DNA from: a virus
Reading direction: 5' to 3' (one strand)
IMG/VR virus record: IMGVR_UViG_3300036823_000160
Coordinates: 1 to 64,000 of that record
DNA length: 64,000 nt
Part shown: positions 10,264-53,543 of the stretch, one piece after another
Layout of the letters: every line of letters begins with the position of its first letter
Numbering within the stretch: position 1 is the stretch's first letter
Made by a program: the position numbers and the translations under genes
The notes under the pieces: model-generated
Database searches by the model: none
What the model was told of the DNA's origin: nothing
The model's input: only the letters and a program-made list of their open reading frames with translations

Positions 10264-10270
10264 CCAGGGG
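10261..10270. promoter_or_regulatory. CTGGTCA operator-like site
   Basis: TGACCAGGGG, in opposite orientation to the copy at 10295, 24 bases away, upstream of the helicase gene. Confidence 0.45.
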
Positions 10271-10294
10271 ATGCCCATGGCACGCGTCGCGCAC

Positions 10295-10304
10295 TCACTG
10301 GTCA
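10295..10304. promoter_or_regulatory. CTGGTCA operator-like site at the helicase start
   Basis: TCACTGGTCA ending one base before the GTG at 10306; same sequence as the left arm of the inverted repeat before the sigma factor gene. Confidence 0.55.
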
Positions 10305-14454: not shown

Positions 14455-14481
14455 AGAAGCGAGGGACTGGGTCAGGGGTTC
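14455..14481 (+). promoter_or_regulatory. bipartite phage promoter element (leaderless type)
   Basis: AGAAGC, 15 bases, GGGTTC, then 8 bases to GTG 14490. This spacing fixes the start of the cytosine methyltransferase. Confidence 0.65.
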
Positions 14482-14489
14482 GCTCTAGG

Positions 14490-16766
14490 GTGTCGAACAA
14501 GAAATCGCGGCCTGAACGGCGCGCCGGCGGTCCCAAGGTCGACGACCGCGAGCCAGTCCTGCGCGTGTACTTCGGAGAGGACGAGATCCACGTCGACCTG
14601 TTCGCTGGCGGTGGTGGCGCGTCGGTCGGCGCCGCGCTCGCGACCGGCCGCTCCCCCGACGTCGCGGTGAACCACTCGCCAGTCGCGATCGCGATGCATC
14701 GCGCAAACCATCCCACGACCCGGCACTACATCGAGGACGTGTACGAGGTCGACCCGCGTGTTGCGACTCGCGGTCGGCAGGTCGCGTTACTTTGGCTATC
14801 CCCGACCTGCACGCACCATTCGAAGGCCAAGGGTGCCGCACTCGTCGACCGCAAGATCCGCGGCTTGTGCTGGTCTGCGTTGCCGTGGATCAAACACTGC
14901 CGCCCGCGCGTGATCATCCTCGAGAACGTCGAGGAATTCGCCAAGTGGGGACCGCTCCATCGCCAGCACACGGACGGGTGCGAAGGCGTGAAGTGTGCCA
15001 AGGGGTGTCGATTCGGCACGATGCCCAAGAACCGTCGTGGCAAGGGTCGCATCAAGCACCACGACAAGGGCTGTCCCGGCGTCGAGTGCTCATCCAGGTG
15101 CCGCATCGATCGCCCAATCAAAGCGCGCGAGGCCGAGACCTTCAACGCGTTCGTCGCGAAGATCCGCTCGAAGGGTTACTCGGTCGAGTGGAAGTTCCTG
15201 CGCGCGTGTGACTACGGGGCGCCCACCACGCGCCGGCGCTTGTACATGGTAATGCGCGCGGACGGCCAGCCCGCGAGTTGGCCCGAGGTCACACACGGCC
15301 CGGGACTCGTGCCCTATCGCACCGCGGCCGAGTGCATCGACTGGTCGATCCCGTGCCCGTCGATCTTCGACCGTGAGCGGGCGCTCGCGGACAAGACGAT
15401 GGCGCGGATCGCGCGCGGCGTCCGCAAGTTCGTGATGGAGAGCGAGCGCCCATTCATCGTGCCGGTGAACCACGGCGGTGTCGGACGTCGCGACCTACGC
15501 GTTCACGATTCGGCCGCGCCGATGCCCACGATCACCGGTGGTCAGCGCGGCGGACACGCGGTCGTGGTGCCGATCGTGACGAAGGCCAAGACCCACGGCG
15601 GCGGCAACGGCGTGCACTCGGGCGCAGAGCCGCTAGGAACCGTGACCGCGTCGAAGCGAGGGGAGTTCGCGCTTGCGTCCGCGACGCTTGTTCGCGCCGG
15701 CGCCACGGGTAATTTCCTCGTGTCCCCGGTCGTGGTCCCGGCCACGCACGGCGACTCGCGCGGCCAGCCTGACTCGCGCACGCACGGTGTCGACGAGCCG
15801 CTCCGCACGATCACGACGCTCGGCGCGCAGTTCTCGATCGCGTCTGCCGTTCTGGTTCGCACTGCTCATGGCGATGTCGACGCGTCCGGTAAGCGACGTG
15901 GTCCCGGCGAGCACACGGTCGAAGCTCCGCTCGGTACCGTGTGCGCCGGCGGCACCGATCACGCGATCGCCGCCGCGTATATGGTCCACCGTTCGAACGG
16001 CGAGCGACCGGGTCAGGCGCCGCGCGTCTACGACGTCGAGGACCCACACCCGACCGTTGTCGCCGAGGGGCTCAAGACCGCTGTGTGCGCAGCGTTCCTC
16101 GCCAAGCACAACGGCGGATCGCACGAGAGCAAGAAGGGCGGCCAGGCGGTCACCGCGCCCGCAGATACGATCTCGGCACAGGATCAGAAAGCGGTCACGG
16201 TCGCGCACCTCGTTCGCTACAACAGCGAGAACTCGGCCGCGTCCGCGCGCGGTCAGAGCGCCGACACGCCGGTCTCGACTCTCGATACCGCGAACCGGGT
16301 CGCGGTCGCGACCTCGCACCTGATGAAGCTCCGCGGCACGAGCCCTGCGCACGTCGCATCAAGTTCGCAAGCGGTGGACGCGCCCGCGCCGACGATCTCG
16401 GCCGAGGGCACGCATGTCGCCGAGGTGCGTGCGTTCCTGGTCCGGTACAACGGGCAGTCCGGCCCGCAGAACGTGGACGCGCCCCTCGGCACGCTCGACG
16501 CGACGGATCGGTATGGGCTCGCGACCGTGGTCATCGGCGGGGAGCTGTACGAAATCGTCGACATCGGGATGCGAATGCTCACGCCGCGCGAGCTGTTCGC
16601 TGCACAGGGGTTCCCTCCCACATACCAGATCGACCCCGTCGGCCCGAAGGGTAAGCGCCTGACCAAGACCGAGCAGATCCGCGCGTGCGGGAACTCGGTG
16701 TGTCCGCCGGTAGCTCGCGCGCTCGTCGAAGCCCAGTTCGCGCCGCAGCGCACCGTGGCTGCGTGA
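14490..16766 (+). CDS. C5-cytosine DNA methyltransferase with repeat-expanded recognition region
   Basis: A 758-residue enzyme. Motif I 'VDLFAGGGGASVG' (about 34-46), motif IV 'LSPTCTHHSKAKG' (catalytic Cys near 107), motif VI 'ENVEEF' (about 146), 'TTRRRLYMV' (motif VIII), then motif IX-X-like 'TPRELFAAQGFP' and 'GNSVCPPVARAL' at the end. Between about residues 330 and 690 are some ten degenerate copies of a 30-50 residue unit of the form 'V(D/E)xPLxTIxxxxxxxxAxAxLV', far longer than usual recognition domains. It has S-P-T-C where most enzymes have P-C, a variant seen in phage members. It likely hypermethylates phage DNA against restriction. Confidence 0.88.
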   Translation: MSNKKSRPERRAGGPKVDDREPVLRVYFGEDEIHVDLFAGGGGASVGAALATGRSPDVAVNHSPVAIAMHRANHPTTRHYIEDVYEVDPRVATRGRQVALLWLSPTCTHHSKAKGAALVDRKIRGLCWSALPWIKHCRPRVIILENVEEFAKWGPLHRQHTDGCEGVKCAKGCRFGTMPKNRRGKGRIKHHDKGCPGVECSSRCRIDRPIKAREAETFNAFVAKIRSKGYSVEWKFLRACDYGAPTTRRRLYMVMRADGQPASWPEVTHGPGLVPYRTAAECIDWSIPCPSIFDRERALADKTMARIARGVRKFVMESERPFIVPVNHGGVGRRDLRVHDSAAPMPTITGGQRGGHAVVVPIVTKAKTHGGGNGVHSGAEPLGTVTASKRGEFALASATLVRAGATGNFLVSPVVVPATHGDSRGQPDSRTHGVDEPLRTITTLGAQFSIASAVLVRTAHGDVDASGKRRGPGEHTVEAPLGTVCAGGTDHAIAAAYMVHRSNGERPGQAPRVYDVEDPHPTVVAEGLKTAVCAAFLAKHNGGSHESKKGGQAVTAPADTISAQDQKAVTVAHLVRYNSENSAASARGQSADTPVSTLDTANRVAVATSHLMKLRGTSPAHVASSSQAVDAPAPTISAEGTHVAEVRAFLVRYNGQSGPQNVDAPLGTLDATDRYGLATVVIGGELYEIVDIGMRMLTPRELFAAQGFPPTYQIDPVGPKGKRLTKTEQIRACGNSVCPPVARALVEAQFAPQRTVAA

Positions 16767-16792
16767 AAGCTCGCGCGCGCCGATCGGGGTTC
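16765..16792 (+). promoter_or_regulatory. bipartite phage promoter element (leaderless type)
   Basis: GAAAGC, 16 bases, GGGTTC, then 8 bases to GTG 16801. The first box overlaps the upstream stop codon (TGAAAGC). Confidence 0.7.
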
Positions 16793-24305: not shown

Positions 24306-26255
24306 GTGGCCGACGACTGGCGCCCCATCAACCCGAAGTTCACGAACGGGAACGGGATCCTAGGTCCACGCAGATTGCCCGTCGCATCGTCGCCCGATCT
24401 CACACGCGTTCTCGCACTTCCCAGGCGCGCCCCTGTGCGAGGGGGCACCGCGACCGCTCAGGCGCTCGTGGAGATCGGGATGCAACGCTACTCGCTTGGA
24501 GAGCGGACGTGCGCATGCCGAGCCATCGATCCCGAGCGGGCGCGCGCAGCTGACGAGGAGGGTCGGTCGCCGTGCGTGTCGCGCCTGCTCTGGCTGCAGG
24601 GCTGGCTGCTTCACGAGATCACGGTCGCGAACGGCGTTATCGCGAACGCTGCGGTAGGCGGCGGCAAGGGCCTCGTGAACATCCTGGCGCCGCTCGCACT
24701 CCGTGACTGCCCCGTCTGCCTACTACTGGTCCCGCCTTCCCTCCTCGACCAGATCACGACCGAGTACCAGCTCTACGCCGAGCACTTCCGCGTTCCGGGT
24801 CTCGTTGTTCATCTGCCTGGAAGGCAGACCTGGTCGCGACCGCCTCGCGGCGACGAACCGATGCTGCACGTGGTCGGCTACTCGAAGTTGAGCGGGATCG
24901 ACAACTCGGAGCTCATCGAGCGCCTGCGGCCGGACGCGATCATCGCTGACGAGTGCGACGCGCTCGGGTCGCTCGAGAGCGCCCGCGTCCTTCGCTTCGC
25001 GCGGTTCATGATGGAGAACGAGCGCGTGCGGTTCTGCGGGTGGACGGGCTCGCTCACCGATAGGAAGCTGCTCGAGTTCGCCCATCTCTCGGCGTTCGCG
25101 CTGCGCGAGAACTCGCCGCTCCCTCTGGATCGCGAGGTGACCGAGGACTGGGGCCGGTGCATCGATGACTCGGTGAATCCTGCGCCCGCTGGCGCGTTGG
25201 CCAGGATGCTCGAGCCGAACGAGCATCAGTCGCAGATCCGCCAAGCGTTCCGCCGGCGGCTGTCTCAGACAGCAGGCTTCGTCCTCGTTGAGGGCGAGCA
25301 GGTGATCACGAACTCGAGCGGACGGGTCGAACTGGTCGTACGCGAAAAGGAATCCCCCCTGATCCCGGAGATCGTCGATGACGCGCTCAAGAAGGTCCGG
25401 GACTTCATTCGCCCCGATACCCTCGGCGGCAGCGACCAGGACGAGATCCTCGTGGACCCCCTCGAGCAAGCACGATGCGCGCGCGAGGTCGCGACCGGCG
25501 TGTTCTATCGCTGGATCTTCCCGCGTGGCGAGAAGCGCGAGGTGATCTACGAGTGGTACGAGGCACGGAAATCGTGGAACTCCGAGCTCCGGCACAAGAT
25601 GCTACGTGGCGAGGTCAACCTCGACTCGCCAAAGCTATGCGAGAACGCCGCGCGCCGCGCGTGGGGTGATGCTCCCAAGGACGCGAACCTGCCCGAGTGG
25701 GAGGCAGAGTGCTGGCCGCGCTGGCGCGACATCTCCCCCCAGGTCGAGCCCAAGACCGAGGCGGTCCGACTGCACCCGTTCCTGGCCGAGGACGCGGCGC
25801 GGTGGGGGCTCGAGCACAGCGGCCAAGGCAACGCGGGGATCATCTGGTACACGATGGTCGAGCTGGCGCAGTGGATCGCCGAGCTCTCCGGTCATGCCCT
25901 GCCCGTGCACGGCGGAGGCCCCAACGCCGGCAAGGCGATCGCGCGCGAGGACGGATCACGGACGATCATCGCCTCGATCAAGTCGCACGGTCGCGGTCGC
26001 GACAGGCTCCAGTACTCGTTCGCGCGCCAGCTCCTGGTGAACATGCCGTCATCCGACCGCGTGATCACCCAGTTGCTGGGCCGACTACACCGTCGCGGCC
26101 AGCCCAAGCCGCTGGTGGACACGGAGGCGTATCTGCACACGGACGAGCTCCGGTCCTCCATGCGGCAGGCGCTGCGTCGCGGCGAGTACGTAGAGGAGAT
26201 CACCGGCGAGAAACGGAAGCTTCTGTCTGCCTGGACCGGTGATCTCGACGATTGA
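24306..26255 (+). CDS. SF2 (SNF2-like) helicase
   Basis: A 649-residue protein. Motif I 'AAVGGGKGLVN' (about 118-128) is a relaxed Walker A without the usual GK[ST]. It is followed by 'LLLVPPSLLDQ', Walker B-like 'IIADECDAL' (about 213-221), motif III 'GWTGS', and motif VI 'QLLGRLHRRGQ' near 595. The layout is that of phage SNF2-type ATPases found beside DNA polymerase genes. The weak Walker A leaves ATPase activity uncertain. Starts at GTG 24306, four bases after the preceding stop. Confidence 0.78.
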   Translation: MADDWRPINPKFTNGNGILGPRRLPVASSPDLTRVLALPRRAPVRGGTATAQALVEIGMQRYSLGERTCACRAIDPERARAADEEGRSPCVSRLLWLQGWLLHEITVANGVIANAAVGGGKGLVNILAPLALRDCPVCLLLVPPSLLDQITTEYQLYAEHFRVPGLVVHLPGRQTWSRPPRGDEPMLHVVGYSKLSGIDNSELIERLRPDAIIADECDALGSLESARVLRFARFMMENERVRFCGWTGSLTDRKLLEFAHLSAFALRENSPLPLDREVTEDWGRCIDDSVNPAPAGALARMLEPNEHQSQIRQAFRRRLSQTAGFVLVEGEQVITNSSGRVELVVREKESPLIPEIVDDALKKVRDFIRPDTLGGSDQDEILVDPLEQARCAREVATGVFYRWIFPRGEKREVIYEWYEARKSWNSELRHKMLRGEVNLDSPKLCENAARRAWGDAPKDANLPEWEAECWPRWRDISPQVEPKTEAVRLHPFLAEDAARWGLEHSGQGNAGIIWYTMVELAQWIAELSGHALPVHGGGPNAGKAIAREDGSRTIIASIKSHGRGRDRLQYSFARQLLVNMPSSDRVITQLLGRLHRRGQPKPLVDTEAYLHTDELRSSMRQALRRGEYVEEITGEKRKLLSAWTGDLDD

Positions 26256-26280
26256 AAGCGACCACGCGAGCTCCGGGTTC
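26254..26280 (+). promoter_or_regulatory. bipartite phage promoter element
   Basis: GAAAGC, 15 bases, GGGTTC; both boxes perfect. Unlike most copies the gene starts 35 bases downstream and has a strong AGGAGA ribosome-binding site, so this transcript would carry a leader. Confidence 0.7.
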
Positions 26281-28732: not shown

Positions 28733-28735
28733 CCC

Positions 28736-28981: not shown

Positions 28982-28982
28982 C

Positions 28983-29769: not shown

Positions 29770-29969
29770 GCCTCATCGGTCGCGCCGCCAGGTTCCTGGC
29801 GAAGGAACTCGCCGCCGGCGTCGTGCAGGAGTTCGGCAAGGAGCTCGGTCGACACATCGGCGACGCGCTCGGGACCGTCGCGGGTCGCCAGATCGATCCC
29901 GAACACGAGCGCGACGACAAGAAGCGCGAGGGTGCGAACGATGGCGAAACTGACGGGATCAAACCATGA
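29766..29969 (+). CDS. small hypothetical protein with amphipathic N-terminus
   Basis: A 67-residue protein: an amphipathic helix ('SLIGRAARFLAKELAAGVVQEFGKEL') followed by a highly charged tail. It could associate with membranes. ATGA overlaps both sides. Confidence 0.5.
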   Translation: MSLIGRAARFLAKELAAGVVQEFGKELGRHIGDALGTVAGRQIDPEHERDDKKREGANDGETDGIKP

Positions 29970-30325
29970 CACACCTGCGCTGGCTCGTGGATCGTTTGGT
30001 GTCTCGGGTGTGGTTCTGGCGCCATCACATCGAGGCCGTGATGCCGACCGACCAGGTTGGTCAGTACATGGCCGAGTGCTCGTGCGGTGGCGGGGTGCAG
30101 TTCGTGGCGCACTGGTCGCACGCGTCCGTGATCACGGTCTCGACGTGCGCGCTCGGCTCATGGTTGATGTGCCGCGGTCACGGTGTCGCGTTGTCACCCG
30201 CACGCATCGATCGATCGAGCGCTGAAAGCGCTCGCCCGATCTCGCGGTTCCTCGTCGAGTGCAGCTCGACCGCGTCGCCTCGTTTAGTACGACCGCGCTT
30301 GCGTTCGACCTCGAGACCCACGTAG
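29966..30325 (+). CDS. hypothetical protein overlapping the polymerase start
   Basis: A 119-residue protein with 'AECSCGGGVQFVAHW' and further Cys/His residues. The frame runs 67 bases into the DNA polymerase gene and covers its promoter element. A competing frame ends exactly at the TGA of TGAAAGC (30223), as at most other such promoters, so the true C-terminus is uncertain. Confidence 0.5.
   Translation: MTHLRWLVDRLVSRVWFWRHHIEAVMPTDQVGQYMAECSCGGGVQFVAHWSHASVITVSTCALGSWLMCRGHGVALSPARIDRSSAESARPISRFLVECSSTASPRLVRPRLRSTSRPT
30224..30250 (+). promoter_or_regulatory. bipartite phage promoter element (leaderless type)
   Basis: GAAAGC, 15 bases, CGGTTC, then 8 bases to GTG 30259 of the polymerase gene. 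Confidence 0.6.
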
Positions 30326-31728: not shown

Positions 31729-31969
31729 CTTAGATAGCGAGTGCCCGAACGACTGCTGGTGCCGCTTTGTGCGCGTGGACGGTGTTCCCATCGAGATCGA
31801 GGAAGACAAACCGTTCACGGACCCTCGCTCGATCGCGTGCCCCGAAGCGGCCTGTGTGGGTACGCTTCGCTCCGGCGGACGCAACGTTCCCAACACACTC
31901 ACGTTCCTGATCTGCGACGTGTGCGCGTGCGCGTATGTCGCCGAGGACCGGCCGGGGATCTCGACGTGA
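31718..31969 (+). CDS. small Cys-rich protein inserted between the polymerase halves
   Basis: An 83-residue protein with several Cys pairs ('CPNDCWC', 'CPEAACVG', 'CDVCACAY'), likely zinc binding. ATG overlaps the end of the first polymerase part by 11 bases and follows a strong GGAGGAGG. The stop overlaps the start of the second part (GTGA). Its position suggests a linker or assembly factor for the split polymerase; that is inference. Confidence 0.65.
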   Translation: MLSDLDSECPNDCWCRFVRVDGVPIEIEEDKPFTDPRSIACPEAACVGTLRSGGRNVPNTLTFLICDVCACAYVAEDRPGIST

Positions 31970-33243
31970 CGCGCACGGTCCCGCTCACGCTGCGGCCGAA
32001 CGTGATCGTCGATACCGGACGCGTCTCGTATGACGGCGTGGTCCAGCTGTTCCCACGCAAGGGTGGCTATCGGGATCGCCAGAGCAAGGAGTGGGTCCCG
32101 TCGCTGCGCGAGTGTATCGTCGCTCGTCCCGGCTACGTGTTCTCGAGCGAGGACTACACGGCCGGCGAACTGTTCACGCATGCACAGTCGTGCCTGTGGT
32201 TGCTCGGGTACTCCGATCTCGCCAAGACCCTACTCGCGGGCATCAATCCGCACGCCGAGCTCGCGTCGCGCGTGCTCGGGATCGCCTACGAGCAGTTCGA
32301 CAAGAAGATCAAGCAGCACGCCGACACGCGCCAGGCCGCCAAGCCCGTCGTGTTCGGCAAGCCGGGAGGCATGGGTGACGCGAAGATGGTCATCCAGCAG
32401 CGCTCGCAAGGCCCGGACACGCCGTGCCCCGACGGGCCGTCCGAGGTCGACGACGGTAACGGCGACAAGGTCCCCGGCTATACGGGGTTGCGGTTCTGCG
32501 TTCTGATGAACGGTGCGCGCCGGTGTGGCGAGCACCCGGACGGCCGGCCGAACCGGACCACGCGCTGGGGCGGCAAGTACTCGAAGCCGATCGCGCCGAC
32601 GTGCGTAGCGTGTCTTGAGTGCGCGGCCCAGATCAGCCGGATCTGGAAGGACTCGGGTCGAGAGAACCAGCCCTACTTCAACCTCGTCGAGGAATTCGGC
32701 GAGTACGGCATGACCATCACGCCGGACATGATCGCGCGCTGGCCGTGGATCGGCGAGTGGTACGAGCCCGGCCAGCAGTTGGCGCCTGGCCAGGTGATGC
32801 AGCACTGGTCGGGGAGGCTTCGCGGCGGCCTCGATTTCTGCGACATGGCGAACGGGTTCTTTCAGGCGCTGCTCGCGGACGCGACGAAGTCCGCGCTGCG
32901 CCGCATCGTGCGCGAGTGCTACGTCCACACGATTGTTCCCGAGTTCGCGCACGAGAACTCGCGGCGCTCGCAGTTCGCAGGCTGTCCGTCACCGTTACTG
33001 GGTTCGCGCGCGATCGGGTTCTTCCATGATGAACTCTTTATGGAGCATCCCGAGTCGATCGCACACGAGGCCGCGACGCGCGTGTCCGAGATCATGGTCG
33101 AGGAGCTCGTGTGGATCTGCCCCGACGTCGGGCCGAAGGTATCCGCGGAACCGACGCTGATGCGCCGCTGGAGCAAGAGCGCGGAGAAGGTCACGGACGC
33201 CAACGGGCGCCTGATCCCGTGGGAGCCGCGGATCGCGGCGTAG
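31966..33243 (+). CDS. polA-C: DNA polymerase A, C-terminal part (palm and fingers)
   Basis: A 425-residue second half. 'RPNVIVDTGRVSYDGVVQLFPR' is the usual lead-in to the palm, motif A 'SEDYTAGELFTHA' has D63, motif B 'RQAAKPVVFGKPGG' has R122, K126 and F130, and motif C 'FFHDELFME' has H354-D355-E356. All three catalytic motifs are intact. An 80-residue Cys-containing insertion (about 145-220) lies between motifs B and C. The GTG start is in a GTGA overlap, so it must join the first part in trans. Confidence 0.88.
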   Translation: MTRTVPLTLRPNVIVDTGRVSYDGVVQLFPRKGGYRDRQSKEWVPSLRECIVARPGYVFSSEDYTAGELFTHAQSCLWLLGYSDLAKTLLAGINPHAELASRVLGIAYEQFDKKIKQHADTRQAAKPVVFGKPGGMGDAKMVIQQRSQGPDTPCPDGPSEVDDGNGDKVPGYTGLRFCVLMNGARRCGEHPDGRPNRTTRWGGKYSKPIAPTCVACLECAAQISRIWKDSGRENQPYFNLVEEFGEYGMTITPDMIARWPWIGEWYEPGQQLAPGQVMQHWSGRLRGGLDFCDMANGFFQALLADATKSALRRIVRECYVHTIVPEFAHENSRRSQFAGCPSPLLGSRAIGFFHDELFMEHPESIAHEAATRVSEIMVEELVWICPDVGPKVSAEPTLMRRWSKSAEKVTDANGRLIPWEPRIAA

Positions 33244-33244
33244 C

Positions 33245-33271
33245 GAAAGCGCAAGAACGAGTTCGCGGTTG
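33245..33271 (+). promoter_or_regulatory. bipartite phage promoter element (leaderless type)
   Basis: GAAAGC, 15 bases, CGGTTG, then 8 bases to ATG 33280. Confidence 0.6.
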
Positions 33272-33279
33272 CGGGCCGC

Positions 33280-33819
33280 ATGAGCCAGAAGACGACCACG
33301 ACCTGCGACCACTGCAAGGCACACACGGGCACGTACGTGACCGCGTTCGGAAACTCGACCAGTTTGATATCCGAGACGCGGCACTACTGCGAGATGTGCT
33401 GGAATGGGTTCGCGGCCGCGATTGCGCTCGGTCCCGACGACGCACTGACTCGCGCACTGCACAAGCTAGAGTCCGCCGAGCGCGACTGCCGTACGGCCGA
33501 GACTTCGGCCACAACCGAGAAGGCTCGGGTCGAGTATCTGTCGAAAGAGGGTGCGGCAGCGGCCCAGCGTGCGTCCGTGGCCGAGCGGCGCGTTGCCGAG
33601 CTCGAGGCACGTTTCAAGGACGCGTGCGCAGCGCAGGGGCAGCTTCAGGGTCAGCTGCAGACCTTCGAGCTTGCGGCGCGCACCGTGTCGAGTGCCGCCG
33701 ATCAGCTCCTGGTCGAGATGCGCGGGAAGGACCGGCGCCGTTACCAGGACCTCATTGACGGACTCGCGGAAGCGATCGACAAGTGGTCCGAAGTCGTGGG
33801 CGCGGAGGGCGTCCAGTGA
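33280..33819 (+). CDS. zinc-knuckle and coiled-coil protein
   Basis: A 179-residue protein. Two C-x2-C pairs (CDHC, CEMC) near the N-terminus form a probable zinc site. Residues 60-140 are a long charged coiled coil ('RALHKLESAERDCRTAETSATTEKARVEYL...'). It begins at ATG 33280 behind a promoter element and overlaps the next gene (GTGA). Function unknown. Confidence 0.65.
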   Translation: MSQKTTTTCDHCKAHTGTYVTAFGNSTSLISETRHYCEMCWNGFAAAIALGPDDALTRALHKLESAERDCRTAETSATTEKARVEYLSKEGAAAAQRASVAERRVAELEARFKDACAAQGQLQGQLQTFELAARTVSSAADQLLVEMRGKDRRRYQDLIDGLAEAIDKWSEVVGAEGVQ

Positions 33820-34316
33820 TCCTCGTCAGGCTCGCCGCCGCCGCCGCGTTCGCGATCCTGATCGCACTCGCCGCCCCTTTCCCGTCGCCGACAGCGGACC
33901 GCGTTCGTGCGCTGCCCGACACGGCGCTCACGAGCGAGGCGGCGGACGAGAACGTCGCCGCGGCGCGGATCGCGGGCATGCTCACGGGTGAGCGGCCCGA
34001 GATCCTGCTCGCGCTCGCATGGCACGAGTCGCGCTTCATCTCGAACGCGGTCTCACGGGAGGCGAACGGCCTGGTTAGCTGCGGAATCGCGACCCCAGAA
34101 CCACAGGCCAAGTGCGAGGACGAGCCGCTCGTGATCCAGTACCAGCGCGGCGCCGAGCACCTCGCGGGCTGGCGGCGCGCACTCGGCGATCGAGCGCTGT
34201 TTGGATACGCGGGTGGGTACCGACTCAACAAGGCGTGCCTCGCCGGCTCGACGGTGCGCGGGTGCACTTTCCCGGCGTGGATGGAGTCGCTCGCGAACCG
34301 GATCGCGGGTCTCTGA
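33816..34316 (+). CDS. secreted lysozyme/transglycosylase-like protein
   Basis: A 166-residue protein with an N-terminal hydrophobic signal (VRLAAAAAFAILIALAAPFPSP). The mature part has 'LLALAWHESRFISNAVS', a typical SLT/lysozyme-like core with the catalytic Glu in 'HES', then 'FGYAGGYRLNKAC' and three or four cysteines. It would act on peptidoglycan in the periplasm or assist infection or lysis. It is separate from the GH25 endolysin in the late region. Confidence 0.65.
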   Translation: MILVRLAAAAAFAILIALAAPFPSPTADRVRALPDTALTSEAADENVAAARIAGMLTGERPEILLALAWHESRFISNAVSREANGLVSCGIATPEPQAKCEDEPLVIQYQRGAEHLAGWRRALGDRALFGYAGGYRLNKACLAGSTVRGCTFPAWMESLANRIAGL

Positions 34317-34343
34317 AAAGCGGACCTGTCAGCGCGCGGGTTC
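34316..34343 (+). promoter_or_regulatory. bipartite phage promoter element (leaderless type)
   Basis: AAAAGC, 16 bases, GGGTTC, then 9 bases to ATG 34353. Confidence 0.6.
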
Positions 34344-34352
34344 GGGTGCTCG

Positions 34353-34586
34353 ATGTTCCACAAGGTATCGGATATCGAGGCGAAGCCGCTGCCGGCCAAA
34401 CAGTTCAACGTCAGCACGTCGGGCGGCTGGTTCGCGCCAAGCAGCTCGGGCAAGCAGACGTCCACCTCCACGGTTGGGCACACGACCTGGCGCTGCAACA
34501 ACTGCCGCGCGCTCGCGGTAGGACCGATCGGGTGTGCGCCACCGACCGAGTGCGGGAAATGCCACAGCAAGGGAGGTGCCGGGTGA
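34353..34586 (+). CDS. small zinc-ribbon-like protein
   Basis: A 77-residue protein with a Ser/Thr-rich centre and C-terminal 'WRCNNCRALAVG' plus 'CGKCHSKGG', two C-x2-C knuckles typical of a zinc ribbon. Promoter element 9 bases upstream; GTGA overlap with the next gene. Confidence 0.6.
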   Translation: MFHKVSDIEAKPLPAKQFNVSTSGGWFAPSSSGKQTSTSTVGHTTWRCNNCRALAVGPIGCAPPTECGKCHSKGGAG

Positions 34587-34858
34587 AGTCCAAGCTATCG
34601 AAGTCACAGGTTCGCAAACAGGCCGTGTTCATCTGCCAGACCGCGGCGATTAACCCCGTAGCATACCACGGCGAGTTCTACGACCGTGTCGTCGATACGT
34701 TTGGGCTCTCCAAGCCAGCTCGGCACCTCGCGGTCGCGGCTTGGGTTGCCGTCGTACACGGGAGTTCTTGGACGATCGAGACCGACGGCGAGGCGGCGGC
34801 CTTGCTCGCTACCGGATGGTCGCCCGGGGTAGCGATTAAGCGGAGGCGTAGCGAGTGA
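34583..34858 (+). CDS. small hypothetical protein
   Basis: A 91-residue protein ('VKSKLSKSQVRKQAVFICQTAAINP', 'LAVAAWVAVVHGSSW'). GTG in a GTGA overlap; its stop lies at the first box of the next promoter. No family recognised. Confidence 0.55.
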   Translation: MKSKLSKSQVRKQAVFICQTAAINPVAYHGEFYDRVVDTFGLSKPARHLAVAAWVAVVHGSSWTIETDGEAAALLATGWSPGVAIKRRRSE

Positions 34859-34883
34859 ACGCGGTCGTCCCACTCCGGGGTTC
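34857..34883 (+). promoter_or_regulatory. bipartite phage promoter element (leaderless type)
   Basis: GAACGC, 15 bases, GGGTTC, then 9 bases to ATG 34893 of the beta-helix lipoprotein. Confidence 0.6.
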
Positions 34884-34892
34884 GACCGTTCG

Positions 34893-36317
34893 ATGATCAG
34901 AATTCAAGCACTCCTCGTGTTCGCACTCGTGACCACCCTCGCGTGCGAACGCGGCCCACTCCAGTCCGCGGACTCGGCCGAACTGGTCACCGGCGCTCTC
35001 GGGAATTGTGCTGTCCCGGCGGCAATTCCCGACGACGGTTTCGATGACCTGGGTGCGATCCAGGCCGCGCTCGACGGCCAAGGCTGCGCCGAGCTCGGAA
35101 CCGGCCGATACGACATCTTCACGCCATCCGAGCCCAAGACGGGGCGCCGACCGATCGCGATGCTGGTCGTGTCGTCAGGAGAGCGCCTCTCCGGCGCAGG
35201 TCCCGGGACCACGCTTGCGTTCTCGGGTTCCGCGCAGCTCGCGGACTGGTACGGCGTCGAGGTGACCGGCTCGGGCGCCGAGATCGAGGACCTCACCATC
35301 GACTCGACCGAGGTCACTGGCGCGTCCGAGCAGACGCACGCGGTGCAGGTGACCGGGCCCGCGACCGCCGTCTCCGTGCGCAGCGTGTGGTTCGATCATG
35401 CGCCGGCGCCGAACGGCGGCGACTGCATCAAGGTGGTGGGCTACCCGGCCACGGAGGTCGTCGGTCTAGATCTCGAGCACGACGAGTTCATGCACTGTCC
35501 GCGCTCCGGCGTGGACGTCCACTCCGGCCTTCACGGCCTGCGCCTCACCGATAGCGGGTTCTACGGCGTGGCCAAGGTCGACATCACGAGCGAGGACGGC
35601 TCCGACAAGTCGGGGTGGGTGATCGCGAACAATGTGATGACCGAAGTCGGGATCGGTGACGCGATCGACCTCGAGTACGTCGACGGTGTCACGATCGCGA
35701 ACAACACGATGCTGGGACGCGGCTTTTTCGCGTTCGACACGTCGCATCTGTCGTTCACCGGGAACTACGTAGCCGAGACCGCGGGCACCGCCTCCGGGGG
35801 CGTCGTGTACCTCGAACGTAACGTCACCGACGCGGTGCTGACCGGTAACGTGATCCTCCGCGGACCAGGCGCGCCGGCCGGTCCTGCGGTCGAGCTCGCG
35901 GCCGACAACGGGGGCTGGCCCCAGCGCGTGAGCCTCTACGCGAACCAGGTCTATCAAGGCGGTGCGTCATCGGCGATCGTGATCGCGACCGGGATCGACA
36001 TCACGGTCGCCGGCAACGACGTGTACCTCGCGGACAGCGACAGCACCGCAATGGGTATCTCGATCACCGGTGTGTCCGCTCGCTCGGACTCGATCGCGAT
36101 CGCAAACAACCGCATCCGCGGCGTCTCGATCGCGGCCGCCCTTCGCATCTCGGGCTCGTACGACGGCCTCGGCGCAATCACCGCGACCGGTAACACCGCG
36201 CGCGGCGCGGCCACGGGCCTGCGCTGCGAAACCCCCAGCGGGATCGCCGGCCCCGTCGTCAGCACGGGCAACAACTGGCCGGCGAGCGGCTGCACGATCG
36301 CAACCGCGGGGCTGTAA
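34893..36317 (+). CDS. right-handed beta-helix lipoprotein
   Basis: A 474-residue protein with a lipoprotein signal ('LLVFALVTTLACERG', lipobox T-L-A-C). The body shows parallel beta-helix rungs: repeated short strands such as 'GVTIANNTMLGRG', 'LSFTGNYVAETAG', 'DSIAIANNRIRGVS' and 'GAITATGNTARG', as in pectate-lyase-like and tail-spike folds. An initial 'PDDGFDDLGAIQAALD' is the common start of such domains. It would be anchored at the host outer membrane and so may change the surface or block superinfection. No catalytic set is evident. Confidence 0.75.
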   Translation: MIRIQALLVFALVTTLACERGPLQSADSAELVTGALGNCAVPAAIPDDGFDDLGAIQAALDGQGCAELGTGRYDIFTPSEPKTGRRPIAMLVVSSGERLSGAGPGTTLAFSGSAQLADWYGVEVTGSGAEIEDLTIDSTEVTGASEQTHAVQVTGPATAVSVRSVWFDHAPAPNGGDCIKVVGYPATEVVGLDLEHDEFMHCPRSGVDVHSGLHGLRLTDSGFYGVAKVDITSEDGSDKSGWVIANNVMTEVGIGDAIDLEYVDGVTIANNTMLGRGFFAFDTSHLSFTGNYVAETAGTASGGVVYLERNVTDAVLTGNVILRGPGAPAGPAVELAADNGGWPQRVSLYANQVYQGGASSAIVIATGIDITVAGNDVYLADSDSTAMGISITGVSARSDSIAIANNRIRGVSIAAALRISGSYDGLGAITATGNTARGAATGLRCETPSGIAGPVVSTGNNWPASGCTIATAGL

Positions 36318-36832
36318 TGGACGCGTTCGCCCCTACCCTGCCCGAGCCCGTGCTCCTGACCTCGATCTGTCGCTGCGCGTCGCCGCACGAGCATGCGAGC
36401 CGAGCCGTGGACAACGCCACGAGCTCACACGCCTCCGAGATCGCGCACCAGCGCAGGGAAGCTGACGTCGTGCTCGCGACCGCGAACAAGCGCATCGCCG
36501 AGCTCCGCGCGAACACCCCAAACCCGGACGACTACGAGGTCGTGCGGTTCAACCGCGTCGGCGGTCATGTCGTGATGCAGGTCCGCTACCCGAGCTGCGC
36601 CAAGTGCGCGTTCGAGGGCCTGAAGACGATGGTGTTCCTGAACGTCGACGAGGCGAAGATCATGCGCTGGCGTCGGATCGATCCGCACTTCCGCAACGAG
36701 ATCAAGACCACGCTCCTGGACGTGACCGGGAAGAACGCACCATCGCCGGCGGCGCGCTTCCCAGGTAACGACACCGGGTGGGCGGACGCGATCGAGTACG
36801 CGGAGCGCAAGCGCGCCGGGACTATCCGATGA
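36317..36832 (+). CDS. hypothetical protein
   Basis: A 171-residue protein from ATG 36317 (TAATG overlap). 'YEVVRFNRVGGHVVMQVRYPSCAKCAFEG' combines beta strands with a C-x2-C knuckle; 'NVDEAKIMRWRRIDPHF' follows. From memory, phage proteins with 'VGxHLVVKVxYPxCxxCxYEGxKVxVFxxxS' are common and uncharacterised. Confidence 0.65.
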   Translation: MDAFAPTLPEPVLLTSICRCASPHEHASRAVDNATSSHASEIAHQRREADVVLATANKRIAELRANTPNPDDYEVVRFNRVGGHVVMQVRYPSCAKCAFEGLKTMVFLNVDEAKIMRWRRIDPHFRNEIKTTLLDVTGKNAPSPAARFPGNDTGWADAIEYAERKRAGTIR

Positions 36833-37251
36833 ACGGCGCTGCGATCTTCAGCCCGTGCGGGACCTGGCGCTTCCGCCTGACCCGCGAGTGGGATACGAGC
36901 GCGCCGCCTGCGGTGATCATCGGCGCGAACCCGTCCACGGCGACGGGCGAAGAGGATGACGCGACGATCCGACTCGAGACCAGTATCCTGAAGCGCTGGG
37001 GCTTCGGCTCGTATGTGAAGCTCAATGCGTACGCGTTCAAGGCCACGCTACGCGACGTGCCGTACGCAATCGCGATCGCGGCTTGGGGCGCGATCCCGAA
37101 GCTACCGTGCGTGAACATGATCTTGGCGGTCGCCCGACTGGCTGGTGTGGACCTACACGCATTCGGGATCAACCCGTCCGGCACGCCATGGCACCCGCTC
37201 TACAAGCCGATCGCGGCGCGGCCGGTGCTGTGGAAGGGGGCCGCGTCATGA
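36829..37251 (+). CDS. DUF1643 family protein
   Basis: A 140-residue protein matching DUF1643: 'WRFRLTREWD', 'AVIIGANPSTATGEEDDATIR', 'RWGFGSYVKLNAYAFKATLRD' and C-terminal 'GTPWHPLYKPI'. DUF1643 proteins occur in phages and bacteria, often beside DNA modification genes; activity unknown. ATGA overlaps on both sides. Confidence 0.8.
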   Translation: MNGAAIFSPCGTWRFRLTREWDTSAPPAVIIGANPSTATGEEDDATIRLETSILKRWGFGSYVKLNAYAFKATLRDVPYAIAIAAWGAIPKLPCVNMILAVARLAGVDLHAFGINPSGTPWHPLYKPIAARPVLWKGAAS

Positions 37252-38762: not shown

Positions 38763-38790
38763 GAAAGCGCTGGCCCGCGCCCTGGGGTTC
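38763..38790 (+). promoter_or_regulatory. bipartite phage promoter element (leaderless type)
   Basis: GAAAGC, 16 bases, GGGTTC, then 8 bases to GTG 38799. Both boxes perfect; the spacing favours GTG 38799 over GTG 38793. Confidence 0.7.
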
Positions 38791-40806: not shown

Positions 40807-40950
40807 GTGATCGTGCTCCCGCTAGAGTCCGTGCTCTGGATCGCCGCGCTCGCCGCGTGTGTACACGACACCCGAGCGCACTTCGACGGTGAGCTCGCAC
40901 TCCTGGCCGAGCGGCTGCTCGGGCGGTGGAGACCGCGAGCACGGGCGTGA
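40807..40950 (+). CDS. 47-residue hypothetical protein
   Basis: From GTG 40807 (VIVLPLESVLWIAALAACVHDTRAHF...): a hydrophobic first half and a basic tail. Its TGA is part of the TGAAAGC box of the next promoter, as at other sites, which supports it being a real gene. Confidence 0.5.
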   Translation: MIVLPLESVLWIAALAACVHDTRAHFDGELALLAERLLGRWRPRARA

Positions 40951-40976
40951 AAGCCGCCGGCGGCGGGGACGGGTTC
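40949..40976 (+). promoter_or_regulatory. bipartite phage promoter element (leaderless type)
   Basis: GAAAGC, 16 bases, GGGTTC, then 8 bases to ATG 40985. Both boxes perfect. Confidence 0.7.
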
Positions 40977-40984: not shown

Positions 40985-41239
40985 ATGGGTGAATTGAACT
41001 TCGTCGTGTTCGTCGGTGCGCACGGCACCGGCAAGATCTGGCTCGCGAATTACGTCCAGTCCGAGTTCGTGGACATCATCGATGACTGGGACCCGGTGCT
41101 CGAGCTTCGCAATCCACGGACACGGACGCCCGGACACAGGGTGGTCGCGTGCACGAATGTGCCGATCTCGATGTGGCCGACCGATATCTACGAACGCGTC
41201 CGCGCGCAAGGCAAGATCTACGTCGTGGCCGAGGTCTGA
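40985..41239 (+). CDS. small P-loop protein
   Basis: An 84-residue protein with a Walker A-like 'VGAHGTGKIWLANYV' (residues about 10-24) and 'VDIIDDWDP', which could serve as Walker B. It ends 'RAQGKIYVVAEV'. Far shorter than complete P-loop NTPases, so it may be a minimal nucleotide-binding protein. Promoter 8 bases upstream. Confidence 0.6.
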   Translation: MGELNFVVFVGAHGTGKIWLANYVQSEFVDIIDDWDPVLELRNPRTRTPGHRVVACTNVPISMWPTDIYERVRAQGKIYVVAEV

Positions 41240-41264
41240 AAGCACACCTGCCACACGCGGGTTC
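41238..41264 (+). promoter_or_regulatory. bipartite phage promoter element
   Basis: GAAAGC, 15 bases, GGGTTC; both perfect. The ATG (41294) is 29 bases downstream with an AGGAG site, so the mRNA would have a leader. Confidence 0.7.
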
Positions 41265-41293: not shown

Positions 41294-41635
41294 ATGAGTT
41301 GGAGCGTGTACGCGACCGGGCCCAAGGCCACGGTCATCGAATCGATCACCAATAACTTCGACACTCAGGCCGCGAACTACACCGGCGAGCGCGAGCGGGA
41401 GGGCAAGGACATCCTCGCCTGCAAGGAGCGCGTGCTCGCGTTGATCGAGGACCTCGACCTCGAGCCGAACGAGTACTCGCCCCAGGGCTACGAGGTCGCC
41501 ATCTCGTGCCACGGCTCGCACTCGACGTCGTACACGCACAAGGGGCCGAACGACCCCGCGGACTCGAGCAAGCTGATGAGCGCGAGCTTCAACTGCGCGG
41601 TCGCGCGCAAGGCGATCCCACTCGTCGCCGACTGA
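41294..41635 (+). CDS. hypothetical protein
   Basis: A 113-residue protein with a good Shine-Dalgarno (CCAGGAGCAGGATCATG). 'ITNNFDTQAANYTGEREREGKDILACKERVLALIEDLDL' suggests helices with a lid-like second half. No family recognised. The combination of perfect promoter and strong RBS predicts high expression. Confidence 0.65.
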   Translation: MSWSVYATGPKATVIESITNNFDTQAANYTGEREREGKDILACKERVLALIEDLDLEPNEYSPQGYEVAISCHGSHSTSYTHKGPNDPADSSKLMSASFNCAVARKAIPLVAD

Positions 41636-41661
41636 AAGCGCGCGGGTACGCGAGCGGGTTC
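41634..41661 (+). promoter_or_regulatory. bipartite phage promoter element (leaderless type)
   Basis: GAAAGC, 16 bases, GGGTTC, then 7 bases to ATG 41669. Both boxes perfect; the first overlaps the upstream TGA. Confidence 0.7.
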
Positions 41662-43576: not shown

Positions 43577-43603
43577 GAAAGCTCGCGAACCATCTCGGGG
43601 TTT
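43577..43603 (+). promoter_or_regulatory. bipartite phage promoter element (leaderless type)
   Basis: GAAAGC, 15 bases, GGGTTT, then 11 bases to ATG 43615. Confidence 0.6.
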
Positions 43604-45772: not shown

Positions 45773-45990
45773 TGTTCGGCGCAGCCTTGTTCCCAGGATC
45801 CCATTCTAGGCCCACGGTCTCGCTCGAGGACCTCGACACGCCCGCGACCGACGGTGAGATCCGCGTCGAGACCGACGAAGGGCTTAGCAAGCGCGTGCTC
45901 TACGTCGCCGATCCCACGAACGAGATCCACACCGCGTACGGGCGCCAGCTCGACGAGGTCGCCGAGCGCCAGTTACACGACGCGGCCTGA
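45772..45990 (+). CDS. small hypothetical protein
   Basis: A 72-residue acidic protein from ATG 45772 (TGATG junction). Its TGA is the TGA of the following TGAAAGC box. No family recognised. Confidence 0.55.
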   Translation: MFGAALFPGSHSRPTVSLEDLDTPATDGEIRVETDEGLSKRVLYVADPTNEIHTAYGRQLDEVAERQLHDAA

Positions 45991-46016
45991 AAGCGACCGT
46001 CGCCTCGTGCGGGTTC
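45989..46016 (+). promoter_or_regulatory. bipartite phage promoter element (leaderless type)
   Basis: GAAAGC, 16 bases, GGGTTC, then 9 bases to ATG 46026 (an ATG directly at 46017 is less likely). Both boxes perfect. Confidence 0.7.
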
Positions 46017-48863: not shown

Positions 48864-48883
48864 GCCGCGTTACGCCGCTTTTT
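48863..48883 (+). terminator. intrinsic terminator between convergent blocks
   Basis: AGCCGCG, loop TTA, CGCCGCT followed by a run of five T: a 7-bp stem with one C-C mismatch. The TTA loop is also the (reverse) stop codon of the sigma factor gene, so both convergent genes end inside this short hairpin. Confidence 0.65.
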
Positions 48884-50255
48884 CGTCCGCAACGTCGCCC
48901 GAGGTTGCGTCCGCGCCGCGATACCCGTACTCGGTACGAGCGAACTTCGCCAGCACGGGCGCGAGTGCCATCCGCGCGCGCGCCAGCCGCGTGTGGACCG
49001 TGTTCTTGGGGATGCCGAGGTCGCGCGCGATCTCCTCGCAGCCCTGGCCCCAGGCGTAGAAGCGCTTCACCACCTCGCGCTTGTCGTGGTCGAGCTCAGC
49101 GATCGCGGCGAGCACCTCGTCCCCGAACGGCTCCTTGTCGTCGACGCGCACCGGCTGCGTGACCGCGACGATGTCCGGCGATCGCGATTCACCAGCGTCC
49201 TGGTACTGGATCGCGAGCGCGGTATCGGTGCCGTGGGCAGCCGCGACCAGGTCCTCCCGCCGTTCGCGCGCGGCTCGGCGTCGCACGTTCCGGTGGTGGT
49301 ACGTCTTCACGAATGTGTTGCAGACGATGCGGTACATCCATCCGCGCGCGGCGGCGATGGGGTCACCTTCGGGCACCCAGCGCGGCCACGCGCGGAAAGC
49401 CTTCGCGAACGCGTCCTGGACGACGTCCGCGGCTCGATCGGCGTCGCCATCACAGAGTCGTCGCGCGTAGGCGACGAGGTCCGGGCGCAGTGGTAGCACC
49501 AGCGTCTCGAAAGAGGGCGCGGCCGGCTCGACAAGCGCGCGGTCACCGAACTCGGCTGCGACCGCGGCCAGCATCGCCGCCGGCATCGCCGTAAGTCCGA
49601 CGGCGCGCACGACCTCACCTGGCTCGAACACGCCGCCGCGGGTCGCAAGCCCCCACACGCGCGCCAGGTCGTTGCCGGACAGTTCGGCTAGGATCGCGGG
49701 GTCGTCGTCGCGAAACCGCGCCTCGACCTCGCGTCGCGTCGCGATCCCGGTCGCGACCTGCAGCTCGACGAGAGACGCCAGAAACGTGCGGGTTTCGCAG
49801 GACGCCGCCGCGCCCGCGCGCTCGATCCCGTCGCGAACCGTCGGCCACGCGTCGCCGGCGACCAGCCGCTCGACGCCGATGACCGCGATCGCGTCCGAGA
49901 TCCAGAGTCGCCCGCTCGCTAGGCCGCGCGCCATCAGGCAGGCGGCGAGTTCGCGGTTCGCGACGAGGAACGTCGGGTCCGTGATCAGAGCGCGAGCGTG
50001 TCGCGTCAGATCCAGAATGCCGGCTTCGGCCTCCGCGGCGAGCGCGCGCGTGAGCCAGTCATCAGCCCCCGACGTTCGTGACCAGGCGTTTGCTGGTCGC
50101 TCGTCCGGCGCGTCCTCGACGGCCGGCTCGGCGGTGAGCTCGTTCAGCGGAGCGAGCTCGGGGAGTGAGGGCTGCGAGAGGATGACCGGCCGTGACGGGA
50201 CCGGTGGTAGAATTTCGTTCAGGGACGACGCAAGCGACGGGACAATGTGCAGCAT
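48870..50255 (-). CDS. ECF-type sigma factor with long N-terminal extension
   Basis: A 461-residue protein. Sigma region 2 spans about 255-325: 'VAYARRLCDGDADRAADVVQDAFAKAFRAWPRW' then 'GWMYRIVCNTFVKTYHHRNVRRR'. Region 4 spans about 380-440: 'VLAAIAELDHDKREVVKRFYAWGQGCEEIARDLGIPKNTVHTRLARARMAL', a clear HTH. Ahead lie about 250 residues of Pro-rich linker and helical domain, not part of normal ECF factors (about 180 residues). ATG 50255 has a GGAGG three bases upstream; a TTG at 50324 is open but lies in the operator-like dyad. Candidate activator of the GAAAGC/GGGTTC promoters; untested. Confidence 0.85.
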   Translation of the reverse strand: MLHIVPSLASSLNEILPPVPSRPVILSQPSLPELAPLNELTAEPAVEDAPDERPANAWSRTSGADDWLTRALAAEAEAGILDLTRHARALITDPTFLVANRELAACLMARGLASGRLWISDAIAVIGVERLVAGDAWPTVRDGIERAGAAASCETRTFLASLVELQVATGIATRREVEARFRDDDPAILAELSGNDLARVWGLATRGGVFEPGEVVRAVGLTAMPAAMLAAVAAEFGDRALVEPAAPSFETLVLPLRPDLVAYARRLCDGDADRAADVVQDAFAKAFRAWPRWVPEGDPIAAARGWMYRIVCNTFVKTYHHRNVRRRAARERREDLVAAAHGTDTALAIQYQDAGESRSPDIVAVTQPVRVDDKEPFGDEVLAAIAELDHDKREVVKRFYAWGQGCEEIARDLGIPKNTVHTRLARARMALAPVLAKFARTEYGYRGADATSGDVADEKAA

Positions 50256-50311
50256 GGACCTCCAGACGCTCGCCCACCGGCGTGCGTCAGGACCAGTCAT
50301 CCCATACGGGA

Positions 50312-50345
50312 GTTCACTGGTCAACCCGAATTGTGACCAGTGAAC
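50312..50345. promoter_or_regulatory. 12-base perfect inverted repeat upstream of the sigma factor gene
   Basis: GTTCACTGGTCA (50312-50323), ten-base centre ACCCGAATTG, TGACCAGTGAAC (50334-50345). Both arms contain the CTGGTCA core found singly elsewhere. It lies 57 bases before the likely sigma start, downstream of the endolysin gene. A dimeric regulator operator is the simplest reading; a recombinase site of similar geometry cannot be excluded. Confidence 0.7.
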
Positions 50346-50384
50346 GACCGAATCGTCACGATGGGGGGATCTCCTAGAACGAGA

Positions 50385-52077: not shown

Positions 52078-52104
52078 GAACCCGATGAGGGTGGTCGCGC
52101 TTTC
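52078..52104 (-). promoter_or_regulatory. bipartite phage promoter element (leaderless type), minus strand
   Basis: Read leftward: GAAAGC (52104-52099), 15 bases, GGGTTC (52083-52078), then 8 bases to ATG 52069. Both boxes perfect, and on the late strand. Confidence 0.7.
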
Positions 52105-52114: not shown

Positions 52115-53506
52115 TCAGGCCGCGACCTGGCGCACGCCGACGGTGTTGCGCTGGATCCGACCGTGAACGCGATGGATCACGTCGCACTTCATGTCCTGGC
52201 CTGAACGGTACCCCTTGCTCGCGTGCCAGCCGTCCTTCGGTGCGAGCGTGCGGAGGGTCTCGACTATGACGCCCGGGAACTCCTTGAGCGAGTCGTGGTG
52301 TACGTGGCCGGTGTAGAAGTAGCGGAACTCGGTCTCGCCCCAGTCCTGTTTGCGATCGCAAGCCATGACCGCCGGTAGCTCCGTAGGCTTGCACGTGTCG
52401 CCGTGTGTGACGCCGATCAGGTTCGCGCCAAAGCGAAGCCAGTGGAACTTCGCGGGCGACGGGTCGATCGTCACGCGCGGCTCGCGCTCGTAGTACTGCT
52501 CGAGGCAGAGCGCGAGCATCACGCTCGCGTGCGTGTCGTGGTTCCCGATCTCGCAGATCACGCGCACGCTCTCGTGCTTCTCGAGCGCACGATCGATGCA
52601 CCGACGCATCGCGCGGATCCCGACGCGTAGCAGTTTCGCCCAGCGTGTGTCCGTGTCCACCCGCGTCCCCGCGGTCGTGGTCCCGAACATGTTATCTACG
52701 TGGAAGAAGTCGCCCAGGTTGATGATCAGTGCCTGCTTGGCTGCAGGTGCCGACGCGACGAGTGCATCAACGGCCGCGCACAGGTTGTGCTCGGCGATCG
52801 TGAGGTCGAAGTCCTCGCCGGTCTCCTTCCCCCACGCCATCATGCCGAGGTGCGGATCGCCCATCGGGTAGACGCACAGCAGGTCCTCATCGAGCGGCGG
52901 GCTCGGGGGCGAGGCAGGCTCGGCCACGCTCTGCCAGGCGTCCGCGATCCCTGCCATGGCCGCGAGCAGCGCCGCGATTGCGGCCTGCTCCTCGGACTTG
53001 GTCTTGACCCACTGCCCGATCGCGCGCGACTCGCCGGTGTCGGGGTCGATCTTGTAGTACGTCGAGGTGCCCTTGACCAAGAAGCCTTCGGGCGTCGACT
53101 TCGTCATGTCGTGCGCGGGCGAGTATCCGCGTGTCGCCGCGCGTCGCCGCAGCTCGGAGAGATGCGCGCGAACCTGCGTCGGCGTCAGGCCGAGCTCGAG
53201 GGCCGCGTCCACCACCGAGCAAAGGCGGCTGGTGGTCTCGGCGCACGCGCGCTCCATCTCGCCGCCGAACGAGAACAGGGCCTCGCCTCCGGCGGCGATC
53301 GCGGAGACCAGCACTTCATCGTGCTCGACGCGCGACGTGTTCGGGAAGCGCTCGGCGCGATAACCGCGTAGGTATTTGCGCTCGCACTCGCGGCAGCTGT
53401 TTCGCCAACCGCCATCGGCGCGCTTCCGATAGTGTTCGATATCGAGCAGCAGGTCCTGCTCGCACTTCGAACACCGCTTGTGGTCCGGGATCGGAATTTC
53501 CGCCAT
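52115..53506 (-). CDS. metallophosphoesterase with N-terminal zinc finger
   Basis: A 463-residue protein. N-terminal 'CSKCEQ' and 'CRECERKY' form a zinc finger, followed by a helical winged-helix-like region ('ALELGLTPTQVRAHLSELRR'). The phosphoesterase core has D-x-H 'GDPHLG' (216-221), 'NLGDFFHVDN' (263-272), 'GNHDTH' (321-326), 'THGD' (367-370) and 'GHVHH' (400-404), a complete two-metal set. Similar phage proteins are annotated as DNA-linked oxidoreductase or phosphoesterase without proof. Start lies 10 bases after a promoter element. Confidence 0.85.
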   Translation of the reverse strand: MAEIPIPDHKRCSKCEQDLLLDIEHYRKRADGGWRNSCRECERKYLRGYRAERFPNTSRVEHDEVLVSAIAAGGEALFSFGGEMERACAETTSRLCSVVDAALELGLTPTQVRAHLSELRRRAATRGYSPAHDMTKSTPEGFLVKGTSTYYKIDPDTGESRAIGQWVKTKSEEQAAIAALLAAMAGIADAWQSVAEPASPPSPPLDEDLLCVYPMGDPHLGMMAWGKETGEDFDLTIAEHNLCAAVDALVASAPAAKQALIINLGDFFHVDNMFGTTTAGTRVDTDTRWAKLLRVGIRAMRRCIDRALEKHESVRVICEIGNHDTHASVMLALCLEQYYEREPRVTIDPSPAKFHWLRFGANLIGVTHGDTCKPTELPAVMACDRKQDWGETEFRYFYTGHVHHDSLKEFPGVIVETLRTLAPKDGWHASKGYRSGQDMKCDVIHRVHGRIQRNTVGVRQVAA

Positions 53507-53516: not shown

Positions 53517-53543
53517 GAACCCGTAACACCTCCGGGACCTTCC
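53517..53543 (-). promoter_or_regulatory. bipartite phage promoter element (leaderless type), minus strand
   Basis: Read leftward: GGAAGG (53543-53538), 15 bases, GGGTTC (53522-53517), then 10 bases to ATG 53506. Confidence 0.6.

Follow-up and report, generated by a model that had tools for sequence, protein, structure and literature searches.

An ECF-type sigma factor with an N-terminal extension and a candidate cognate promoter class in an uncultured phage

The stretch of DNA analysed here (the window) comprises bases 1-64,000 of an IMG/VR record of 77,536 bp and carries, on its minus strand, a gene for an ECF-type sigma factor (Table 1). As a sequence-only reading of the window had observed, the gene lies at the junction between the rightward and leftward gene blocks: it is convergent with the last rightward gene, which ends at 48863, with 6 bp between the two. 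An alternative in-frame TTG start at 50324 would give a version of the protein of 484 aa. The remaining 13.5 kb of the record completes a leftward head and tail block with genes for a head protease, a major head protein, a tail sheath and a tape measure protein, so the phage is contractile-tailed.

Table 1. Positions of the sigma factor gene, its parts, the upstream dyad and the promoter-like elements in the window.
Feature	Position	Strand	Remarks
ECF-type sigma factor gene	48870..50255	-	461 aa, ATG start, stop codon within range
Sigma region 4	48963..49118	-	residues 380-431, PF08281 36.6 bits (cut-off 25.7)
Sigma region 2	49305..49499	-	residues 253-317, PF04542 36.3 bits (cut-off 24)
N-terminal extension, codons 1-246	49518..50255	-	coding, predicted helical, no detectable homolog
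Dyad upstream of sigma gene, candidate operator	50304..50353		20-nt arms 85% complementary, 10 nt apart; core CACTGGTCA/TGACCAGTG (CTGGTCA/TGACCAG)
Promoter match AGAAGC-N15-GGGTTC	14455..14481	+	upstream of DNA methyltransferase gene (14490)
Putative promoter GAAAGC-N16-GGGTTC	16765..16792	+	8 nt before GTG 16801
Putative promoter GAAAGC-N15-GGGTTC	26254..26280	+	35 nt before ATG 26316; Shine-Dalgarno sequence; ortholog in relative also with promoter
Putative promoter GAAAGC-N15-CGGTTC	30224..30250	+	8 nt before first DNA polymerase gene (30259); ortholog in relative also with promoter
Weaker promoter match GAAAGC-N15-CGGTTG	33245..33271	+	before ATG 33280
Promoter match AAAAGC-N16-GGGTTC	34316..34343	+	before ATG 34353; ortholog in relative also with promoter
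Promoter match GAACGC-N15-GGGTTC	34857..34883	+	before ATG 34893 (tail-spike-like gene)
Putative promoter GAAAGC-N16-GGGTTC	38763..38790	+	before GTG 38799
Putative promoter GAAAGC-N16-GGGTTC	40949..40976	+	8 nt before ATG 40985
Putative promoter GAAAGC-N15-GGGTTC	41238..41264	+	29 nt before ATG 41294; Shine-Dalgarno sequence
Putative promoter GAAAGC-N16-GGGTTC	41634..41661	+	7 nt before ATG 41669
Putative promoter GAAAGC-N15-GGGTTT	43577..43603	+	11 nt before ATG 43615
Putative promoter GAAAGC-N16-GGGTTC	45989..46016	+	9 nt before ATG 46026 (DnaQ-like exonuclease)
Putative promoter GAAAGC-N15-GGGTTC	52078..52104	-	8 nt before ATG 52069 (leftward gene)
Promoter match GGAAGG-N15-GGGTTC	53517..53543	-	10 nt before ATG 53506 (exonuclease); ortholog in relative also with promoter

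Both Pfam matches of the sigma protein exceed their curated cut-offs, as does its match to TIGR02937, the general ECF model of NCBIfam (65 bits, cut-off 42.9), which bears out the earlier view that regions 2 and 4 are clear and of the ECF type. PHROG 1740 ('RNA polymerase sigma factor') matches over the sigma part of the 461-aa protein, its closest solved chains are the ECF sigmas SigL, SigH and SigE, and in a structure search ECF initiation complexes ranked at the top with weak E-values. Regions 2 and 4 are joined by a linker of about 60 residues, and there is no Pfam match to sigma region 3 or region 1.1. With regions 2 and 4 and neither of the other two, the protein is an ECF (group IV) sigma-70 factor. 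The core-binding motifs VVQD and W-YRIV-NTF are conserved between it and the sigma factor of a related phage, G001, which is described below. Neither phage has a second sigma factor above cut-off or a gene for a multi-subunit RNA polymerase, the beta subunit included, and a search of both for a single-subunit RNA polymerase, made without a positive control, was empty. A tblastn search of phage and plasmid records found no relative of the sigma protein, nor did scans of viral contigs with this protein alone; scans with both sigmas aligned recovered only G001, and among bacteria nothing was reached but Verrucomicrobiota ECFs, at about 31%, which is uninformative.

The protein had also been said to carry an extra N-terminal domain, and some 245 coding residues without a match in the libraries searched are indeed found there. 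Residues 1-245 are truly coding: frame 0 has a positive codon score in each block of 50 codons, the two other frames of the same strand score negatively, and no internal start of the sigma ORF has a Shine-Dalgarno sequence. The extension matched nothing in Pfam, NCBIfam, PHROGs or PDB sequences, even at E-values up to 1 or 10, and tblastn against phage and plasmid records gave no relative. AlphaFold2 models of the full protein and of its N-terminal part (mean pLDDT 47 and 51) contain helices only, at low confidence; the structure prediction that had been proposed for residues 1-250 thus agrees with a helical domain, but the models are too poor to say more. Internal repeats, suspected by eye, were rejected when the best self-alignment did not exceed those of shuffled sequences.

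When we counted GAAAGC-N(8-25)-GGGTTC in the window phage, we found 8 exact copies where 0.11 would be expected. Each of them has a spacer of 15 or 16, and there is no copy with the two blocks in reverse order. The pattern also emerges from an unbiased count made with no prior motif, in which AAGC-N16-GGTT ranks first among all 4-mer dyads upstream of genes. Allowing one or two changes gave 16 good sites, of which 15 lie within the window and the last lies beyond its end. The two blocks are similar to those of ECF promoters in general, which have a GAA-containing -35 element, a short GC-rich -10 element and a spacer of about 16. Among the genes served are those for a DNA polymerase, a DNA methyltransferase and two exonucleases, one DnaQ-like and one SbcD-like; a dNTP-hydrolase-like gene, whose match falls below the Pfam cut-off, also belongs to them. 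This agrees with the earlier statement that the elements stand before replication genes and two leftward genes, at least two sites being leftward in the window (Table 1). Given the functions of these genes, a middle-gene regulon is the natural reading.

G001 (IMGVR_UViG_3300017791_000355, 135.7 kb), a distant relative, was found by a terminase scan, its terminase being 62% identical to that of the window phage. Its single ECF sigma (L014 17031-17765, 244 aa) is 37-41% identical to the window sigma over regions 2-4 and lacks the N-terminal extension. Its gene occupies the equivalent place, at the 3′ end of a gene block and with a convergent neighbour. In the same unbiased dyad count AAAG-N17-AGTT ranks first in G001, and GAAAGC/T or GGAAGC followed after N15/16 by GAGTTC or GGGTTC has 22 matches in this genome against 0-3 in simulated sequence; the -10 element is mostly GAGTTC, a one-base shift from GGGTTC. 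When a matrix trained on one genome was applied to the other, 15/111 and 24/244 genes scored >10, compared with about 1.2% of random positions. The element is present in both phages at four orthologous pairs (26316, 30259, 34353 and 53506 in the window). Over all orthologs the counts for its conservation were 4/4/2/38, which is significant (p=0.005) at a looser score threshold that was chosen afterwards and not significant (p=0.16) at the stricter one.

Phages lacking the sigma gene served as comparators. None of 27 further records with related terminases, including MW202816.1, has a region-4 match above cut-off, and only 1/17 records with related exonucleases has a hit, a marginal one. The motif is not enriched in the loci of these sigma-less relatives (related-terminase or related-exonuclease records and a few others, mostly distant and in many cases fragmentary), with 2.4 matches per 100 kb in contrast to about 16 in the two sigma phages, and MW202816.1 has 0 matches. 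A scan of the whole of IMG/VR for TGAAAGC-N15/16-GGGTTC-N7/9-ATG returned 61 stretches, and a repeated array was present only in G001. The pairing of sigma factor and motif suggested by the sequence-only reading therefore extends to a second phage with an ECF sigma and the same promoter class, while the sigma-less relatives are without the array (n=2 plus the sigma-less comparators). The case that would have spoken against it, a related phage with the motif and without such a sigma gene, was looked for and not seen among one close relative and many fragments.

The layout of the sites implies a promoter from which transcription would start at the start codon, or slightly upstream of it where a leader exists. 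Since the second block mostly ends only 7-11 nt before the start codon, most of the mRNAs are predicted to be leaderless; at sites 26254 and 41238, where the distances are 35 and 29 nt, each ATG has its own Shine-Dalgarno sequence. In calling the gene starts of the window phage, GGTTC was given a small bonus; those of the relative were called without the bonus or any knowledge of the motif. ATG starts are over-represented among genes of the leaderless type (p=0.02 and 0.009). A test for Shine-Dalgarno depletion did not reach significance, since GGRG is part of the -10 element. That same GGAG or GGGG of the second block, lying upstream of start codons, might be taken to mean that the element is no promoter and that GGGTTC/GGAGTTC acts as a ribosome-binding site or a repressor site, the more so as operator-like repeats are present in both phages. 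We regard this as very improbable. A block at a fixed spacing 15-16 nt further upstream is unexpected for a ribosome-binding site, the GGRG ends about 10-14 nt before the ATG, which is far for a Shine-Dalgarno sequence, and of the 8 sites at 27-58 nt from the start, 7 are accompanied by a Shine-Dalgarno sequence of their own. The element is also directional and not palindromic.

From the sigma family, the motif and its positions, and the co-occurrence of the two, all of which were computed directly, we infer that the phage ECF sigma very probably directs host core RNA polymerase to the phage promoter class and so switches on a middle regulon. The sigma factor would bind host core RNA polymerase, and the loaded polymerase would recognise a -35 element (T)GAAAGC and, after a spacer of 15-16, a -10 element GGGTTC. 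Transcription would begin about 7-11 nt beyond the -10 element, usually at the A of the start codon to give a leaderless mRNA, and would turn on, with middle timing, DNA-replication and nucleotide-metabolism genes and a few others on both strands. One could suppose instead that an alternative (ECF) sigma of the host reads the motif and that the phage sigma has some other target, such as host genes. Phages often use host promoters. Nevertheless, among the phages examined the array is found only in the two carrying an ECF gene, and between these two the -10 element has shifted (GGGTTC to GAGTTC) while the -35 element and the recognition helix of region 4 hardly differ (PKNTVHTRLARAR, PRNTVFTRLHRAR). 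This is what one would expect of an element read by the phage sigma. Reading of the motif by a host sigma is accordingly judged improbable.

The role of the N-terminal extension is a separate matter from the pairing of sigma and promoter, for which, judging from the sequences, it is not needed, because the sigma of the relative is without it. The N-terminal half has no match anywhere in the G001 genome; the gene upstream of the G001 sigma gene was considered as a detached N-terminal domain and rejected, its sequence looking deoxynucleotide kinase-like. We suppose the roughly 245 residues to be an added regulatory or protein-contact module. The idea that they form a built-in anti-sigma or sensor, which would hold the sigma off until a signal arrives, is an addition to the reading of the phage sigma as the recogniser and not an alternative to it. 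It can draw on at least 26 bacterial ECF groups that have a regulatory extension at the N or C terminus, in some cases a fused anti-sigma (PMC8999054), and on the predicted helical character of this half. No known anti-sigma or sensor domain, nor similarity to any other known domain, was found in the extension in Pfam, NCBIfam, PHROGs or PDB sequences. With the extension missing from the relative's sigma, with fold models of such low pLDDT, and with a module binding polymerase, DNA or a partner fitting equally well, an anti-sigma or sensor seems unlikely. More tentatively than the pairing itself, and at somewhat less than even confidence, we propose that a new lineage-specific N-terminal domain regulates the sigma or serves to tether it, either to host polymerase or to a further phage factor, and that the sigma runs a largely leaderless middle regulon from an ECF promoter class not described before.

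The sigma genes of both phages lack an upstream GAAAGC/GGGTTC site. In the window phage this region holds the dyad listed in Table 1, and in G001 a sister-motif dyad, GTCCAG/CTGGAC, is found upstream of its sigma gene (76878-76899). Lacking its own promoter class and having a dyad upstream, the sigma gene probably owes its first expression to a promoter that is host-type or operator-controlled. The dyad was also considered as an intrinsic terminator and rejected, since it has no T run and its fold score is unremarkable (z -1.6). It belongs to a second intergenic repeat, CCCTGGTCA/TGACCAGGG in the window phage and CCCTGGAC/GTCCAGGG in G001, which is enriched in the intergenic DNA of both; TCCAGGG occurs 49 times in G001 against 8.6 expected. 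The repeat is often found near start codons and as dyads, at 1835-1937, 7580-7796, 10261-10298, 50304-50353, 61074 and elsewhere in the window, and throughout G001. It looks like an operator system, and it is reasonable to infer that an operator-binding regulator acts before the sigma factor. An opposite-strand gene at 5522-6166 (minus strand), conserved in G001 (35%) and with no known domain, is a candidate for such a regulator. Beside the operator repeat we also noted elements resembling TGGCACG-N4-TTGC, a sigma-54-like pattern, at L005 11941 (genome 75941, minus strand) and at 1915 and 10278 in the window. We do not claim a sigma-54-like reading for them: the copy at 75941 is well placed before the structural block, and the other copies face away from genes.

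ECF sigmas had been called uncommon in phages, which is fair, but there are precedents in crAss-like phages and in phiEco32 and SU10 (PMC4281155). The sigma gp36 of phiEco32 and its SU10 copy gp32, annotated as an ECF sigma, go with the motif tAATGTATAtA (PMC4281155), and for phage 7-11 a similar line of reasoning led to the promoters (PMC4331800). The window phage would resemble all three in having a phage sigma that reads phage-specific middle and late promoters with the host core polymerase, and it has, like them, few conserved promoter copies per genome; as with phiEco32 gp36, a phage-specific motif co-occurs with the sigma. It differs in the motif itself, GAAAGC-N15/16-GGGTTC in place of tAATGTATAtA, and in the size of the protein, 461 aa compared with the 25.8 kDa of the SU10 sigma. 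The phiEco32, SU10 and 7-11 phages also encode a host polymerase inhibitor, whereas none was recognised among the genes of the window phage other than the small ones of unknown function. The 'RNA polymerase sigma-W factor' of crAss-like phages (PHROG 1740) belongs to the same PHROG family as the sigma part of the window protein, and these factors, from gut Crassvirales, have 185-187 aa and no extension. Among bacteria, ECF41, ECF42, ECF36 and ECF238 (PMC8999054) likewise join an ECF core to an added, potentially regulatory domain. Regulatory extensions are common in bacterial ECFs but fall into recognisable types; in these groups they are mostly C-terminal and of known kinds (SnoaL-like, TPR, cysteine-rich), while that of the window sigma is N-terminal with no recognisable domain; one ECF group with a named N-terminal extension carries transmembrane helices and DUF2275 (PMC8999054).

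Phage ECF sigmas with cognate phage promoters are thus already known, and the novelty here lies in the N-terminal domain, the promoter class and its predicted leaderless layout. For a group of uncultured GC-rich phages the locus offers a complete and testable sigma-promoter pair, namely the factor and some sixteen target sites, with G001 as a diverged second example that differs by one base in the -10 element, and with clearly predicted leaderless starts. Such a compact orthogonal set of sigma and promoters lends itself to studies of ECF promoter recognition. The lineage-specific N-terminal domain raises the question of how an ECF sigma is regulated in phages when the usual anti-sigma is missing.

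Other features of these genomes may be mentioned. The family-A DNA polymerase is apparently split over two genes (30259-31728 and 31966-33243) with small genes between them, and is split in G001 too (B175/B172). Under a motif promoter, the gene at 34893-36317 encodes a tail-spike-like protein with a start resembling a signal peptide or lipoprotein, and the SbcD-like exonuclease at 52115-53506 begins with a zinc-finger-like region similar to phage HNH/endonuclease VII proteins. Both phages carry tRNA clusters, of 9 tRNAs in the window phage (L005 11961-13533) and 23 in G001 (28496-37124).
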